Virus record (IMG/VR): IMGVR_UViG_3300032342_000060
Span: 1 to 25,853 of that record
Reading direction: 5' to 3' (one strand)
DNA length: 25,853 nucleotides
From: a virus
Every line of letters begins with the position of its first letter. Position 1 is the stretch's first letter. The position numbers and the translations under genes were made by a program. Below, piece by piece: positions 8,139 through 20,878 of this stretch. The notes below the pieces were generated by a model. It was not told where the DNA came from, did no database searches, and saw nothing but the letters and a program-made list of their open reading frames with translations.

Positions 8139-8666
8139 TCAGATACCCTCCGTCACCCAGCGCAAGAGGCGCTTCTGCGTATATTCGGTATCTTCTCTTT
8201 GAACCACGATATATGGCCGCGCAGGGATGTTCTGCATGAACTGGCGGTAGAAGCCGCGCTTCACCTGGATTCTTTTCGGGCTGATCGAGCGGCCGAACGC
8301 CTGGGTAATTGTGCGATGATGCGGCCGGACGTGTTGCTTGACCTTTCCCTTGAATCCTTTCTGATGGACCGCTGAATACGGCAGATTGGAGGAGATGGTC
8401 AGCCTGTCGTCTCCCACTTCGTATTTCACGCTGTGCCAGAGGCGGCTTTTCCCGATCAATGTCTTGCCGCGTCCCTTTCGGGTCTTCTTCGACGGTGTCC
8501 ACCTCGGCCGTCCGCCCACGTTGAAGTTCTGGTCCGTCGAGTAGCGCATCTGCTCCCGGACAGAGACCATCACGGGCCGCATGTTCCGCGCCCGGTCTCC
8601 GATGGCCTCAATCGCCGCCTGCGTCTCGGTGAGGTCAAGTATTTTTATTTCTTCTTTCATGCCCAT
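8139..8666 (-). CDS. Phage virion morphogenesis protein (Mu gpG-like), 175 aa
   Basis: Mu G-type proteins act at the head-tail junction during completion. The 175-aa protein has an N-terminal helical part (LTETQAAIEAIGDRARNMRPVMVSVREQMRYSTDQNFNVGGRPRWTPSKKTRKG), typical of the family. In particular, Q-x-F-x-x-x-G-x-P-R-W-x-P, with the following K-T-L-I-x-x-S-R-L, matches Mu gpG/tail completion proteins. The later strands (WHSVKYEVGDDRLTISSNLPYSAVHQKGFKG) and PARPYIVVQREDTEYTQKRLLRWV near the end also fit. The start overlaps the previous ORF by one base as TAATG. An ATG two codons further in (M3) is an alternative start. Confidence 0.85.
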   Translation of the reverse strand: MGMKEEIKILDLTETQAAIEAIGDRARNMRPVMVSVREQMRYSTDQNFNVGGRPRWTPSKKTRKGRGKTLIGKSRLWHSVKYEVGDDRLTISSNLPYSAVHQKGFKGKVKQHVRPHHRTITQAFGRSISPKRIQVKRGFYRQFMQNIPARPYIVVQREDTEYTQKRLLRWVTEGI

Positions 8667-9106
8667 TAGTAAATATTTCCATTGAACGCCCCGCTGTGAG
8701 CCTGTAGCGCGGCCGTTTTTGGCATCAAACCGTATAACCGACTTATTATCAGATAGTTAAGGGAATATGCGAAATCAGACGGACGTATGATTATGGCTGG
8801 CAGCCGTTTTTTAACGAAGATTACAGCAAGATTACCAAGATTACACGAAAAGTGCACAAGATTACTGCACTTTTTGCCGTTCAAATTATTGGATTCCGTA
8901 AGCCTTTTATTATCAGCATTATCCAAATATTTGAAGATTACAAGGATTACAATTGGGTGGTTTTTTAAGTTACTGATAAATAAGGCACTTACGGACAAGA
9001 TTACAAAGATTACACGTTTGCTAATAGCAACTGTGTAATCCTGCAAACGAGGCACGATCTCCGCCGGTTTTCCGCTTTGTCGCTGACTTTTTATATGAAT
9101 CGCCAT
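8666..9106 (-). CDS. Doubtful ORF, 146 aa, spanning a GATTAC-repeat island
   Basis: A 146-aa frame is open here, but I am not confident that it is a real protein. The first 27 residues (MAIHIKSQRQSGKPAEIVPRLQDYTV) and last 23 (LMPKTAALQAHSGAFNGNIY) look protein-like, whereas the middle is rich in V-I-F/V-I-L and N-L-G-N-L segments encoded by repeated GTAATC. Its stop (TAATG) overlaps the start of the next gene by one base, which favours translation. The SD is poor (AAAAGGCAGAAA). One reading is a small neck gene into which a repeat element was inserted without breaking the frame; the other is a non-coding spacer. No family recognised. Confidence 0.35.
   Translation of the reverse strand: MAIHIKSQRQSGKPAEIVPRLQDYTVAISKRVIFVILSVSALFISNLKNHPIVILVIFKYLDNADNKRLTESNNLNGKKCSNLVHFSCNLGNLAVIFVKKRLPAIIIRPSDFAYSLNYLIISRLYGLMPKTAALQAHSGAFNGNIY
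8819..9040. repeat. GATTAC repeat island with two palindromes
   Basis: Eight GATTAC copies on the plus strand (8819, 8830, 8839, 8860, 8936, 8945, 8999, 9008) and one inverted copy (9035-9040) lie within 222 bp. Three pairs are spaced exactly 9 bp (AAGATTACnAAGATTAC-like). Embedded in the island are AAAAGTGCA-9 nt-TGCACTTTT (8848-8874, perfect arms) and a 33-bp near-palindrome (9008-9040): outer arms GATTACAC/GTGTAATC and inner arms TTGCTA/TAGCAA. The island is AT-rich against its flanks. It is not a CRISPR: the units are too short and spacing is irregular. Confidence 0.8.
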
Positions 9107-9123
9107 TTTCTGCCTTTTTTTTC

Positions 9124-9555
9124 TCAGAATCCCGATAGGGTCTCCCGTGTGAAGGCTCGGATGTTTCCCGTCACACTCGATGTCCCGGCCTCCGCGTCGC
9201 TTGCCTCCTCCACGCCCGGAAGGTCGTCTTTGCCGCTTGATATACTGTTAAAAAGTTTTTCATAACTTTCGTAAATCTCCTGCGTTGTGTCGTCTATTCC
9301 ATCCTGCCGCCGCCCGCGTAAGTACCAGACGGCTATCGCCGCGGATGCATTTTTCACGATCACCGGAACCGGAGAAAGCGGGACGGAGTATCTCTTCGCG
9401 AGCTTGGTATCAATCCAGGCGTCCGCCTTCGCGATAGCTTCTGTTACCATATCATCATCTACCTCGGCATCGCCGGAAGGATCGTCGAAAGTCAGCTCCG
9501 CAACCTCCGCTTCCTTGATAAGCTTCAGGATGTCGTCTTGATCGCAATAAGCCAT
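9124..9555 (-). CDS. Mu gp36-like head-tail connector protein (DUF1320), 143 aa
   Basis: DUF1320 proteins sit at the connector between the portal and tail. The protein starts AYCDQDDILKLIKEAEVAELTFDD and continues MVTEAIAKADAWIDTKLAKRYSVPLSPVPVIVKNASAAIAVWYLRGRRQDG, with the pattern D-x-x-I-x-x-A-x-x-x-I-D-x-x-L-x-x-R-Y-x-V-P-L followed by P-x-x-x-x-x-A-x-x-I-A, as in Mu gp36. The length (143 aa) matches. It sits after the capsid and before the gpG-like protein, as in Mu. The C-terminal 25 residues (GVEEASDAEAGTSSVTGNIRAFTRETLSGF) are less conserved. It is followed by the unusual repeat-containing ORF. Confidence 0.85.
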   Translation of the reverse strand: MAYCDQDDILKLIKEAEVAELTFDDPSGDAEVDDDMVTEAIAKADAWIDTKLAKRYSVPLSPVPVIVKNASAAIAVWYLRGRRQDGIDDTTQEIYESYEKLFNSISSGKDDLPGVEEASDAEAGTSSVTGNIRAFTRETLSGF

Positions 9556-12338: not shown

Positions 12339-12446
12339 TTATATTTCTTTTAAGGTTGGTTGCCATCCGTCGGCATATAGCCAACTGGGGCGGCTGGGAT
12401 CGGACGGATCGCTTCCGAGCCTTTTTTTATTTTTCCAACAAATCAT
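12339..12446 (-). CDS. Possible 35-aa mini-ORF at the 3' end of the portal fusion gene
   Basis: The 98-bp interval between the portal fusion and the protease gene is not empty-looking. A 36-codon frame begins at ATG 12446 inside the last codons of the fusion gene and ends 10 bp before the protease ATG. It encodes a proline/aspartate/tryptophan-rich C-terminus (DPSDPSRPSWLYADGWQP) that looks more like a protein than random DNA. No SD is visible, so re-initiation or a frameshift on the A-rich tract next to the fusion stop would be needed. A second frame through the same DNA is also open. Treat as tentative. Confidence 0.3.
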   Translation of the reverse strand: MICWKNKKRLGSDPSDPSRPSWLYADGWQPTLKEI

Positions 12447-15285
12447 CGTTAACATAAATCAATGCAATTCCATTTCTTCTGTTGTTTAGATAAGACTTGT
12501 TTCTCGACACAAAATAGGTTGTAACCTTCGCTCCCTCGGATGGATAGATATCCACCCGGCAATAAAGGTTTTCTTTTTTATCGTTATACATTTTTATAAA
12601 TGTATAACCCCATTCCCCGGAAACGGGATTTTTGTTAACCCAGACCTCCCAGGGATTCTGGACTGTATCTATGAATTTATTGAAATCGATAATCCTTTCG
12701 GGATATTTCAAAAGCTTGTTCAGGCTGCCCTGATTGAAAAGAAGGGTATCCTTGAAAGGCAAGGGTATATGCATTTCTAATTTATCCGGCCAGCCGGAAA
12801 GCAGCGAAGGATATTCTTTCGATATTTCTTTTGCGATTAAATTCCCGATTTCCGATAATTTCGATTCTGGATTGATTCTTATCAGGTGCTTTGCATCTAT
12901 AAAATCTTCAGGTGTTTTTTCTTTATTGTTTTTGAGATCAGCATCCGGGCGGTTTCTCTCTTTCCAGTTAGAAGAGCCTTCTATTCTTTCTATTTCCGGA
13001 ATTACTTCTTCCTTATATTCCACTATCCCGAAATTATAATCATCCGGATTGTGTCCGAAGCCTTCGCGCGGCCGGATGTTCACCGGCAGTCCGGTCTCCG
13101 GATCGTCATAGATGGCAAGCGCCTTCTCCTCGACCTTGAGGCCCATCTGCTGGATCTGCCCTGGCGTAAGCGCCTGGATCGTGCACCGGCAGTTGTAATC
13201 GAAAGGCGGGATCAGACCGCGATCCAATATCTCCTGGTAATGGAATATCTTGCCGTGAAGCGCGCGGTGTGCCGGGCGGACTCGGTCGTCTCCAGCGGTC
13301 AGGATTCGCCAATACGGCCGCTCATCAACGTTTTCCAGCATCTGGCGGACGCGCCCCGCCATATATGCCGATTGCATGTTGGTTTCGAACACGGTGCGTA
13401 AGTGAAATCTGTCCGGCGCGGCAAGTCCTTCGTTGCGGAAAACCGCATTGGTGCGGATGCGGAAATCCTCGAAGCTCAGGCCTTCGTCATAGGCCTGGAC
13501 AAGGAAATCATGCGCCTTGCCGATTGTCTTCAGATTGTCATATCCGGCGACGGAGAACATCCGCCCTTTCCATTTGGCGTTCAGGGCTTTATCTTGCCTG
13601 CTGGAAACCACCGGCTTGCGTTTCAGGAGCTTCAGCCCTTCGTCCGGATTTATAGGGTTATCGCTGAAGGTCGAGTCGCTCAATACGATCTCTTCCCCTG
13701 CCGCTTCCCTCTTCGCTTCGCCGACCCCGATTATCTCCGCGGCCGATGCCGCGTCCGCGAGGATAGCGCCGAGATCGGAATTCATCTCCGCATACGAATC
13801 CCATATATGTTCGAGCGCGTATTCATATCCGCTCGCTTCGACCTGTCGTATCATCTCGTTTTCAAGACGGGCATATCCCTCGGCGGCTTTGTCTATTCCG
13901 CCCTGAAGGATGTCGTCGAATTTGATCTCTATTTTTTCTTTCAGCATCAGAGTTTCAGAGTTTTTTTTTACTTCGGAGAAATTCATCTGTTGCCCGTTTT
14001 GAAATGGGGATTGCGCCCCTTCGGGCTTCAGGAGTGTATCGCCTTCATCCGCCGGTTCGGAAAGGTTCAACACCGAGCGCACCTGCTTCTTGGAGATATC
14101 GAGCCCCATTTCATATCCTGCCTGGATATCCTCCTTCGTGGCGTCTCCTCGCACATCTATCTGGATATGGGGGAAGAGAGGATTTGAGAAGTTCAGGCCG
14201 ATAAGGTTACGCACGAGCTGTTCGTTCAGCGTCAGCTCGAAAGAGAAGGCGTCGTATTTCAACAGGTCCGTTCGGACTTCGGCTTGGACGGTCGCCTGCG
14301 CCTTCGTCCCGTATTGGCTCTCGTTTGTTGAAAGCGTCTGGCCGAGCGCTACCTTCGAGATGAAATCCTTTGTCGCTTGAAGCATCCGTTCGTAGGGCGT
14401 CGCGCCGCTTGCCTTCGTCTCGATGATCTCGATCTTCGTATTTTCATCCAGAACGGCCGCCAGATCATTCATAAGTTCCTGAACCGCCTGGCGGATATAT
14501 TCCTTTTCCGTGGCGTTCGCTCCGGATGCATAATGGCCGATCACCAGCGGATTGCCGTGCCGTTCGATAAACGCCGCCCAGTCCTTCAGATTGTAATTGC
14601 GCAGGACATAGGCAAGCACCAGCGTGTACATCAATCCGGAGGAAAGGAAAGTGAAGTCCTGCTCGAAGTGCTTATGGAATATAAGCTGTTCGCTTTCCTC
14701 GATAGGCGTGCCAGCCAGACCGTAATCGCCCGCGAGCAACGGGAACTCCACGATCTTGTCCGCATCGCGCATCAGCAGACCCCATGCCGGAATCCGCTGT
14801 ATCGTATCCGGAATCAGAAACTTGCCGTCGTATTTATATGTCAGCTGGATCAAAGCAAACCCCTTCGGGATCGCGTCGGTCATCAGCTGCGGCAGCCGCA
14901 GGAGGGCGGGGGTCTTCAATGCCTCTTCAAGCCATTCCGCCTGTTTCTTCGCCTCGCCGGAATCGTCAGCCGGATGGACCATGATCTTCCGGTGCGCGAT
15001 TGAATTCTTGCGAAGTCCCATATCCGCCTTGATGTCCGGGTCTCTTCTCTCCATCTCGTCGAACATCCGCATTGCATCCGTCAGGTATCCCTCTTTCAGA
15101 TCGGTCATATATCCGGAAGCCGTCTTTGGCGTCAGCCCCTGCATCACCTGTTTCCAGTCTTTGGCGTATTGAAGGATATCTATTTTTACGATATTGGAGA
15201 TCTTCTTTTTCCAGCTTTCGGAAATGGCAATAGCGTTCTTTTTCGGAGCGTCGGTCAATATGATCATGCTTTCTTCCGGTTTCAC
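12427..15285 (-). CDS. Portal (DUF935) - MuF head morphogenesis - PBECR-like toxin fusion, 952 aa
   Basis: One uninterrupted frame joins three modules normally found in two proteins. Residues 1-430 are a DUF935 portal like Mu gp29 (GYLTDAMRMFDEMERRDPDIKADMGLR at 66-92; KVALGQTLSTNESQYGTKAQATVQ at 311-334). Residues about 440-760 are a MuF/SPP1 gp7 minor head domain with WRILTAGDDRVRPAHRALHG (659-678) and PPFDYNCRCTIQAL (693-706). Residues about 800-952 resemble the PBECR nuclease-toxin domains often attached to MuF proteins: LLKYPERI (858-865), VWVNKNP, then VTTYFVSRNKSYLNN (921-935). The start is GTG at 15285, sharing GTGA with the terminase stop, with GAGGAA as SD. The last 570 bp is visibly AT-richer than the rest. 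The portal forms the dodecameric DNA entry ring, MuF is a minor capsid protein, and the toxin domain may be injected with the DNA. Confidence 0.9.
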   Translation of the reverse strand: MKPEESMIILTDAPKKNAIAISESWKKKISNIVKIDILQYAKDWKQVMQGLTPKTASGYMTDLKEGYLTDAMRMFDEMERRDPDIKADMGLRKNSIAHRKIMVHPADDSGEAKKQAEWLEEALKTPALLRLPQLMTDAIPKGFALIQLTYKYDGKFLIPDTIQRIPAWGLLMRDADKIVEFPLLAGDYGLAGTPIEESEQLIFHKHFEQDFTFLSSGLMYTLVLAYVLRNYNLKDWAAFIERHGNPLVIGHYASGANATEKEYIRQAVQELMNDLAAVLDENTKIEIIETKASGATPYERMLQATKDFISKVALGQTLSTNESQYGTKAQATVQAEVRTDLLKYDAFSFELTLNEQLVRNLIGLNFSNPLFPHIQIDVRGDATKEDIQAGYEMGLDISKKQVRSVLNLSEPADEGDTLLKPEGAQSPFQNGQQMNFSEVKKNSETLMLKEKIEIKFDDILQGGIDKAAEGYARLENEMIRQVEASGYEYALEHIWDSYAEMNSDLGAILADAASAAEIIGVGEAKREAAGEEIVLSDSTFSDNPINPDEGLKLLKRKPVVSSRQDKALNAKWKGRMFSVAGYDNLKTIGKAHDFLVQAYDEGLSFEDFRIRTNAVFRNEGLAAPDRFHLRTVFETNMQSAYMAGRVRQMLENVDERPYWRILTAGDDRVRPAHRALHGKIFHYQEILDRGLIPPFDYNCRCTIQALTPGQIQQMGLKVEEKALAIYDDPETGLPVNIRPREGFGHNPDDYNFGIVEYKEEVIPEIERIEGSSNWKERNRPDADLKNNKEKTPEDFIDAKHLIRINPESKLSEIGNLIAKEISKEYPSLLSGWPDKLEMHIPLPFKDTLLFNQGSLNKLLKYPERIIDFNKFIDTVQNPWEVWVNKNPVSGEWGYTFIKMYNDKKENLYCRVDIYPSEGAKVTTYFVSRNKSYLNNRRNGIALIYVNDDLLEK

Positions 15286-17389: not shown

Positions 17390-17560
17390 TTATTTTTTGT
17401 TTTTTCTTGGTTTGATCATTCGCACGATCTTCGTTTCCAACAGATGCGATTGGCCGCATTTCATACAATAGGCATAGTGATGCCGACGATTCACACTGTA
17501 CCATTCGGACGTTTTGTTTATCCGGAGTTTTCCGCCACAATATTTCTGTGCGCAAATCAT
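17390..17560 (-). CDS. Small zinc-ribbon protein, 56 aa
   Basis: The sequence between the helicase loader and the terminase carries a short frame starting MICAQKYCGGKLRI with a second pair YCMKCGQ near residues 31-37. Cysteines 3, 8, 32 and 35 give two knuckles (C-x4-C and C-x2-C) about 24 residues apart, a standard small zinc ribbon, and the C-terminus is lysine-rich (KPRKNKK). It starts in an ATGA overlap with the helicase-loader stop, the junction used throughout this operon. A competing frame (GTG at 17564 to 17352) has no zinc pairs or plausible fold and I reject it. Small Com-like zinc proteins regulate translation in Mu, and this one could do likewise, but that is speculation. It is the last gene before the gap ahead of the terminase. 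Confidence 0.68.
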   Translation of the reverse strand: MICAQKYCGGKLRINKTSEWYSVNRRHHYAYCMKCGQSHLLETKIVRMIKPRKNKK

Positions 17561-18264
17561 TCACTCATTTTCCTATAATCGGTGGCATTCAGGATTATGG
17601 TCCGGCACATCTCGGCGAGCCGGGAACGGATGCGCGTCCCGATCCGGTCGGCAAGCGTAACCACGCCCTCATCCGGATAGTTCGTCGTCAGGATCGTCAG
17701 CTTCTCGTTGGCATAGCGTTCGTTCAGTAGATAGGCGACGGAATCGATCGCAAATTCGCTTATCCGCCTGGCGCCGACGTCGTCGAGCAGAAGGCAGTCG
17801 CATTCGAGAAGCGGCTGAAGGTATTCGGCTTCGTTCGATTGCTTGGCGATGATCGTCTGCAGCTCGAGCAGGAAATCCTGGTAATCGAGGAACCGTCCCT
17901 CGGCGCCCTTCAGAATCAATCTTATCAGAAGTGCGACAGCCAGATGGGTTTTTCCGGTCCCGCAGGGTCCCATGAAAAGAAGCCCCTTGCGCACCTCCGG
18001 CCAGTTGTCCGAGATGTTCATAACAGCTTTGCGGGCGTCGCTCGCGGCCTTTGGCGGCAGGCCGGGACGGTCATGGAAGTTTTCGAGGCTGCATTCGCGG
18101 AACCGCTTCGGGATCCCGGCGCGGTGAAGACGGTTCGCCGTGCGCATAGGTTCCAGGCAGCCGCAAGGGTATGCCCGGTTGTTCGGTCTATCGAATATCC
18201 AACCTAATCCCCGGCAGTCCGGGCAGGGGGCGGCGTTACTGTTTCCACTGTTTTGCTGGGTCAT
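17557..18264 (-). CDS. DnaC/IstB-type helicase loader ATPase, 235 aa
   Basis: This AAA+ protein is expected to load the replicative DNA helicase at phage replication forks. Walker A is GPCGTGKT (99-106), Walker B is CLLLDDVG (157-164), sensor 1 is TILTTNY (190-196), and the arginine-rich LADRIGTRIRSRL (204-216) matches the sensor-2/arginine-finger end of DnaC-like proteins. The N-terminus has a zinc-binding CPDC...CGC (C14, C17, C34, C36), typical of phage and Gram-positive DnaC/DnaI loaders. The start at 18264 lies inside the upstream gene and has only a weak SD (AAGAAAG), so coupling with the 109-aa gene is likely. Mu relies on host helicase loading after transposition, so a phage-encoded loader is notable. 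An IstB-like transposition helper is the alternative, but no istA-like partner is adjacent. Confidence 0.85.
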   Translation of the reverse strand: MTQQNSGNSNAAPCPDCRGLGWIFDRPNNRAYPCGCLEPMRTANRLHRAGIPKRFRECSLENFHDRPGLPPKAASDARKAVMNISDNWPEVRKGLLFMGPCGTGKTHLAVALLIRLILKGAEGRFLDYQDFLLELQTIIAKQSNEAEYLQPLLECDCLLLDDVGARRISEFAIDSVAYLLNERYANEKLTILTTNYPDEGVVTLADRIGTRIRSRLAEMCRTIILNATDYRKMSE

Positions 18265-20334: not shown

Positions 20335-20624
20335 CATAGCGGCATCCTCAGGGAAAAGAATTCATCTATTCTTAAACGCAAATAGACAAATGGAGAAAGA
20401 GAAGCTATGATTTTTTTAATTCTATTAAAATAATAGCGAAGAGGAGACGGTTGGTCATAAAACGATAAGCGATAACTATTATAAAATTTCCTATAAGATA
20501 CATGTCCTTTTTTATTACAGAAAGAGCAATTTTCCGTTCTAAAATATGTATACCGCCCGGCTCCTTTTCTTCTTCTGGAACGTAACATGATAATTCCATT
20601 GCCATTGCATTCCGGGCATTTCAT
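20334..20624 (-). CDS. Zinc-ribbon protein with basic C-terminus, 96 aa
   Basis: This protein has one zinc ribbon: CPECNGNG at residues 3-10 paired with CSFCNKKG at 33-40, again DnaJ-like. Between the cysteine pairs is a very basic stretch (LRSRRRKGAGR). The remainder (SYRKFYNSYRLSFY...YFNRIKKIIA...) is aromatic and basic without a recognisable domain. The start is an ATGA overlap with the preceding zinc-ribbon gene, whose last codons supply the GGTGAAA SD region. Strongly AT-rich sequence in the 3' half suggests different ancestry from the transposition genes. A nucleic-acid-binding role is inferred from charge and zinc ribbon only. A tight 6-bp hairpin followed by TTTT lies at the stop codon. 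Confidence 0.68.
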   Translation of the reverse strand: MKCPECNGNGIIMLRSRRRKGAGRYTYFRTENCSFCNKKGHVSYRKFYNSYRLSFYDQPSPLRYYFNRIKKIIASLSPFVYLRLRIDEFFSLRMPL

Positions 20625-20878
20625 TTTTTCACCTTCCAGGCATCACAATAGCCTTTTGGATCGTGATCTAATGCAAAGATCGGACATCCGCGATGATAAT
20701 CGCAATTCCCGCAAATCCGCTCTATTGTTACCGTTCCCGATCCCTTGCAATTAATACATTTCTCTTTGGTGGTTGGACAAAATCCGTTTTTTCGAAAATA
20801 ATAACCCGTGCCTCCGCAATATTTACATACTGCATCAAATGTTTCCGCCGCCGGGCTTTCAGTTTTTTCTTCGCTCAT
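20621..20878 (-). CDS. DnaJ-type zinc-ribbon protein, 85 aa
   Basis: This small cysteine-rich protein has two DnaJ-like motifs: CKYCGGTGY (residues 18-26) and CINCKGSGT (41-49). Further cysteines lie at 34, 56, 59, 65 and 78 (CGNCDYHRGC and YCDAWK). The CxxCxGxG pairs are the signature of the zinc-binding region of DnaJ, here without a J domain, and the second cluster (56-78) may form another zinc site. Likely roles are protein-protein or nucleic-acid contacts by a zinc-stabilised fold; no catalytic residues are evident. It starts in an ATGA overlap with the preceding gene and ends in another ATGA overlap with a second zinc-ribbon gene, so the two are coupled and may have arisen by duplication and divergence. 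Confidence 0.75.
   Translation of the reverse strand: MSEEKTESPAAETFDAVCKYCGGTGYYFRKNGFCPTTKEKCINCKGSGTVTIERICGNCDYHRGCPIFALDHDPKGYCDAWKVKK

Follow-up and report, generated by a model that had tools for sequence, protein, structure and literature searches.

A probable captured repeat element with a preserved reading frame between the gp36-like and gpG-like genes of a Mu-like phage

Main finding

The late operon of a Mu-like phage carries 457 bp of extra, repeat-rich DNA between its gp36-like and gpG-like genes. We regard this stretch as a genuine oddity: it is probably a repeat element that the phage captured, and its reading frame has been preserved. In its complete form, our preferred reading is that of a captured mosaic of intergenic-type (REP/MITE-like) DNA, made up of short repeats in direct and inverted orientation and kept translationally coupled to the genes around it, and we give it an even chance of being right. 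Counted in its favour are the lack of such DNA at the same junction in most relatives, the intact flanking genes, the GC content, the density of repeats and hairpins, the codon score, the openness of the frame, a different small repeat at that junction in one relative, and comparable DNA in an unrelated phage and in a faecal contig.

The phage and its gp36-gpG junction

The window, by which we mean the whole stretch of DNA analysed, is a virus record of 25,853 bases. All of its identified genes lie on the minus strand, namely those for Mu transposase, a Gam-like protein, terminase, portal-F, a capsid-like protein, gp36, gpG (PF05069), gp37 and the tape measure. Neither capsid nor terminase revealed close relatives, the best terminase matches being only 32–38% identical. 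Two side observations concern its gene content. Portal (PF06074), Mu F-like (PF04233) and PBECR2 nuclease-like (PF18810) domains form one 952-residue frame at 12427-15285 (minus strand), whereas the relatives fetched have a gene each for portal and F. In addition, a small frame at 17390-17560 (minus strand) with cysteine motifs (YCGGKL..CMKCG) possibly encodes a Com-like zinc-finger protein, as judged by eye.

The features of the junction are as follows.

9124..9555, minus strand: gp36-like gene (PF07030), intact
8139..8666, minus strand: gpG-like virion morphogenesis gene (PF05069), intact
8667..9123: extra DNA from the gp36-like stop (at 9124) to the gpG-like start (at 8666), 457 bp, 39% GC
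8741..9043: repeat-rich core of the insert, 36% GC over 8760-9050

An earlier note had described a distinct stretch of about 290 bp at this place. The composition indeed differs from that of the surroundings (insert 39% GC, core 30–36%, window 51%), but the size given was too small, as the stretch really spans 457 bp (8667-9123). The same note had stated that Mu-like phages usually lack a spacer here, and this holds. We compared relatives fetched around the terminase (L121, L122 and L124, together with L123 and L125) and IMG/VR relatives. Among the 13 in which gp36 is followed directly by gpG, the two genes overlap or lie at most 2 nt apart in 11 (L121, L122, L124, L127, L128, L129, L130, L139, L148, L180 and L204), the overlaps being ATGA or TGATG and the gaps 1–2 nt. 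L123 and L125 have a different gene order, and some further relatives carry gpG elsewhere. Given that the 457-bp spacer is missing in 11 of the 13 relatives, the window carries an insert. Moreover, gp36 and gpG of the window are full length when aligned with the relatives, and as both are complete, nothing was lost.

The remaining two relatives do have a spacer. In L140, at least 200 bp of other DNA occupy the junction, and in L145 a different small repeat, TTTCAGGTGTCAG, occurs twice in a 64-bp stretch (17930-17993). Most likely the gp36-gpG junction tolerates inserts, and L145 is another instance.

Repeats within the insert

The insert contains GATTACNNN arrays and TTATTATCAG-like motifs. 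Its repeats are listed below.

8819..8824, plus strand: GATTAC unit 1
8830..8835, plus strand: GATTAC unit 2, 9-bp pair with unit 3 and 11 bp from unit 1
8839..8844, plus strand: GATTAC unit 3
8860-8865, plus strand: GATTAC unit 4, in the loop of the hairpin at 8848..8874
8936..8950, plus strand: GATTAC units 5 and 6, 9-bp pair
8999..9013, plus strand: GATTAC units 7 and 8, 9-bp pair
9035-9040: GATTAC unit 9, inverted, inside the 33-bp near-palindrome
8848..8874: hairpin AAAAGTGCA / TGCACTTTT (arms 8848-8856/8866-8874, 100% complementary)
9008..9040: 33-bp near-palindrome (arms 9008-9023/9025-9040, 88%, 1-nt centre), holding units 8 and 9
8895..8995: 101-bp imperfect inverted repeat, arms TCCGTAAG..ATCAG / CTGAT..CTTACGGA, enclosing units 5 and 6

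The nine GATTAC units reported earlier, eight forward and one inverted, were all counted within 8819-9040 (plus-strand starts at 8819, 8830, 8839, 8860, 8936, 8945, 8999 and 9008). Three pairs are exactly 9 bp apart (8830/8839, 8936/8945 and 8999/9008), and the step from 8819 to 8830 is 11 bp. The hairpin and the near-palindrome are likewise present as described. The 101-bp inverted repeat was absent from that description, and so were three TTATTATCAG-like motifs at 8743, 8907 and, inverted, near 8971-8986.

In 5000 dinucleotide shuffles of 8760-9050, the mean number of GATTAC on both strands was 0.19 and the maximum 4, against 9 observed, and 9-bp pairs, of which three are observed, occurred in none of the shuffles. 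The commonest hexamer of each shuffle averaged 3.5 copies, with a maximum of 11.

An open frame joins the flanking genes

The insert contains a reading frame that had been overlooked.

8666..9106, minus strand: open frame of 146 codons, AAGG before the ATG, stop overlapping the gpG start as TAATG, no homologue

This frame (9106-8666) is open throughout on the coding strand. Its ATG lies 17 nt past the gp36 stop, just after AAAAGGCAGAAA, and its TAA overlaps the gpG ATG much like the gp36/gpG joints of relatives. In 20,000 dinucleotide shuffles, the same frame of 145 codons was open with a probability of 5e-5 and any of the three frames with 2e-4, and with every GATTAC/GTAATC unit fixed the value was 8.5e-4; these probabilities are indicative only, because six frames of one region were examined post hoc.

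We therefore considered whether the frame could be a genuine accessory gene (a 'moron') for a fast-evolving, AT-rich protein of 146 residues, of which the GATTAC repeats would be a by-product through short coding repeats. The openness itself, the ATG with its upstream AAGG, the 17-nt distance from gp36 and the TAATG overlap are all consistent with this. So is a single hydrophobic stretch starting near residue 26 (mean 2.1), and short repeats (VIFVIL, VILVIF, CNLGNL) do occur in the product. However, the frame fits phage codon usage poorly, scoring -0.32 on a measure trained on 19 confident genes, 18 of which score +0.18 to +0.38 and one -0.03. It should be noted that a few presumed small genes of the phage score equally low (-0.33 for 20621-20878). 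No relative of the product was found in Pfam, NCBIfam, PHROG, the PDB or viral contigs, even at permissive thresholds, in agreement with the earlier view that no known phage gene accounts for the island. AlphaFold2 run on the single sequence gave a mean pLDDT of 37.6, which is weak evidence, uninformative but not encouraging. Furthermore, the GATTAC units occupy two reading registers within the frame owing to the 11-bp step, and the DNA is rich in palindromes and inverted units that a protein would not need. Overall, we find an accessory gene doubtful.

GATTAC units as a putative binding array

The units could alternatively form a putative array of sites bound by a protein of the phage or the host, such as a late-operon regulator or a recombination or packaging factor, given that steps of 9 and 11 bp are near one helical turn. 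Nine units with non-random spacing point in this direction, as does an unrelated marine phage (L007:2530-2878 and nine like contigs) that carries ten GATTAC units, nine in one incomplete contig. Mostly at 8–11-bp steps, these units occupy the intergenic spacer of two divergently oriented genes (ArdC-like and terminase-small-like, both by eye). Across ten distinct rows, 0 of 60 unit columns vary, as compared with 13 of 220 elsewhere, an excess of conservation that is slight (about 0.04 by simple proportion) in an array found by selecting for the motif. The marine array is a candidate operator, origin or packaging site, but its flanks are unrelated to those of the island. An operator would also be unusual so far inside a co-transcribed late operon; the units are missing in relatives, and no promoter excess was found. 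We consider a binding array an unlikely explanation.

Folding of the insert as RNA

An action of the insert as RNA, in which its hairpins would set the gpG level by attenuating, stabilising or processing the late mRNA, is very improbable in our judgement, although two local hairpins do fold well. The hairpin at 8848-8874 and the palindrome at 9008-9040 outdo at least 199 of 200 shuffles (z -3.6 to -4.4), and the former, an A4/T4 hairpin, resembles a weak two-way terminator; its only T run is TTTT, at the stem end. In contrast, the whole 457-nt region is of ordinary structure (z -1.5 for the coding strand and -2.0 for its complement), and the earlier suggestion of an RNA-structured spacer is weak for the region as a whole, real though the local hairpins are. 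The window contains no Rfam match and no tRNA. A scan of the coding (minus) strand returned no terminator-like site, its loop limit of 8 being one that would miss the 9-nt loop of 8848-8874, and relatives that could provide covariation are lacking.

Searches for related islands

We searched for homologous islands by blastn and found none among 50,697 phage and 72,556 plasmid records. The fetched loci, about 3 Mb in total, contained none either. The window itself holds no second copy of the insert, which counts against a captured repeat. No viral contig matched a 21-base core. Of the 91 contigs matched by a 15-base pattern covering unit 7, none of those fetched held a cluster, and none of 299 genomes from the phylum of a Clostridia MAG, itself bearing a lone pair, contained a two-pair pattern. 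Searching the literature for the repeat strings yielded nothing. Such arrays have been associated with small GxxExxY or S23 protein genes, an association that we do not claim here.

Two kinds of match were set aside. The 20-base core pattern AAGATTACNAAGATTACACG had three genome matches, each a lone pair with no cluster, as chance would give. Two 9-bp GATTAC pairs occurred in 55 stretches of viral contigs, mostly collagen-like GNQ coding repeats (GGTAATCAA), which are simple low-complexity coding and a different thing.

GATTAC-like palindromic DNA in another phage and a faecal contig

Architecture of a similar kind was observed in an unrelated phage record, G001 (45.9 kb; L334, L375), where 19.5 kb contain 12 runs of GATTAC-type units at 9-bp steps. 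Nine of these 12 runs are intergenic, and the elements are dispersed over about ten places, mostly gene junctions. Several runs form hairpins (e.g., AACCGCTGATTACGCAGATTTCGCTGATT..AATCCGTGTAATCCGCGAAATCCGCGGTT), two of which gave z -3.6 and -4.6 when tested. The 9-bp step and the GATTAC core are common to the G001 units (GATTACGCN) and those of the island (GATTACNAA), whereas the spacer bases differ; the link is therefore one of architecture only. A reading frame of 230 residues in G001 includes one GATTACGCN element, in frame, at its N-terminus (ADYADYK).

Moreover, a hairpin similar to those of G001 was found in a faecal contig of chromosomal, Bacteroides-like appearance, where it separates convergent genes. 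Together with the G001 runs, it indicates that palindromic DNA of 9-bp GATTAC-like units exists as a kind of intergenic repeat, one that enters phage gene junctions; common descent with the island is not implied. As a separate observation, the fetched end of MT836920.1 (L376), deposited as 'Bacteriophage sp.', resembles a Bacteroides-type chromosome, with a glycoside-hydrolase-like frame by eye, and the record is for this reason possibly mislabelled.

A captured repeat kept in the coupling chain

Phage late operons are packed, and their neighbouring genes are coupled by overlaps. As relatives join gp36 and gpG by overlaps or gaps of 1–2 nt, the insert looks fitted into this coupling chain. We propose that a chromosome or another mobile element supplied a repeat block, which inserted into the late operon precisely at the gp36-gpG junction and is carried in the late mRNA. 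Ribosomes leaving gp36 would restart 17 nt downstream, translate the single open frame and terminate at the TAATG that includes the gpG start, so that coupling would be kept as it is through the TGATG/ATGA overlaps or 1–2-nt gaps of relatives. Under this proposal, the insert would persist because restart and read-through to TAATG maintain coupling, and, being open in the coupling frame, would do little harm; neither a useful protein nor a binding site would be needed from it.

A host-derived repeat element, as the earlier note had put it, is the best-fitting of the options raised there, although its source was not found in the collections searched. Against the captured-repeat reading also counts that the insert ends bear neither clear terminal inverted repeats nor a target duplication, the best candidate arms (8746-8760/8965-8979) being internal to the insert and 80% complementary.

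If true, a coupling-preserving insert would show that repeat DNA can enter packed late operons without silencing downstream genes, and would offer a route from noncoding repeats to new phage reading frames. If the units were instead a binding array, they would represent an unrecognised control site within a structural operon.

Comparison with known repeat systems

The island shares traits with several known systems. With the TAACTGA intergenic direct repeats of Beggiatoaceae, Cyanobacteria and Bacteroidetes, whose role is unproven (PMC4679880), it has in common a short fixed word directly repeated at gene junctions; those are heptamer direct repeats, whereas the island combines hexamers in steps of 9 and 11 bp with one inverted copy and with hairpins. 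BrickBuilt of Porphyromonas gingivalis, a minisatellite-bearing MITE (PMC4596501), is likewise a noncoding-like insert with tandem and inverted repeats at gene junctions, but its 23-bp units are contiguous, its inverted ends defined and its copies many. The island lacks defined ends and has no second copy in the window or in the phage and plasmid collections searched. The GATTACGCN elements of G001 resemble it in the 9-bp step, the GATTAC core, the inverted arms and the location mostly at phage gene junctions, and differ in their spacer bases, their dispersal and the lack of sequence homology beyond the unit. Without defined ends, second copy or homology, we do not assign the island to the RPEs, MITEs or TAACTGA-type repeats.

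The Rickettsia palindromic elements (RPEs) are short palindromic DNA that stays in open frame within transcribed coding regions (reviewed in PMC10969869), and the island would, as proposed, work like them. It is palindromic too (33-bp and 27-bp hairpins, 101-bp inverted repeat), and a putatively translated frame runs open through it, although it lies between genes. RPEs are about 150 bp long, multi-copy and inside host genes, whereas the island is 457 bp long, single-copy in the window and between phage genes. Homology to RPEs is not claimed. The island may represent, with a rather low probability, an intergenic analogue of RPEs in a phage late operon, that is, a palindromic element with its own start, frame and stop-start overlap that inserts between overlapping genes without polarity.
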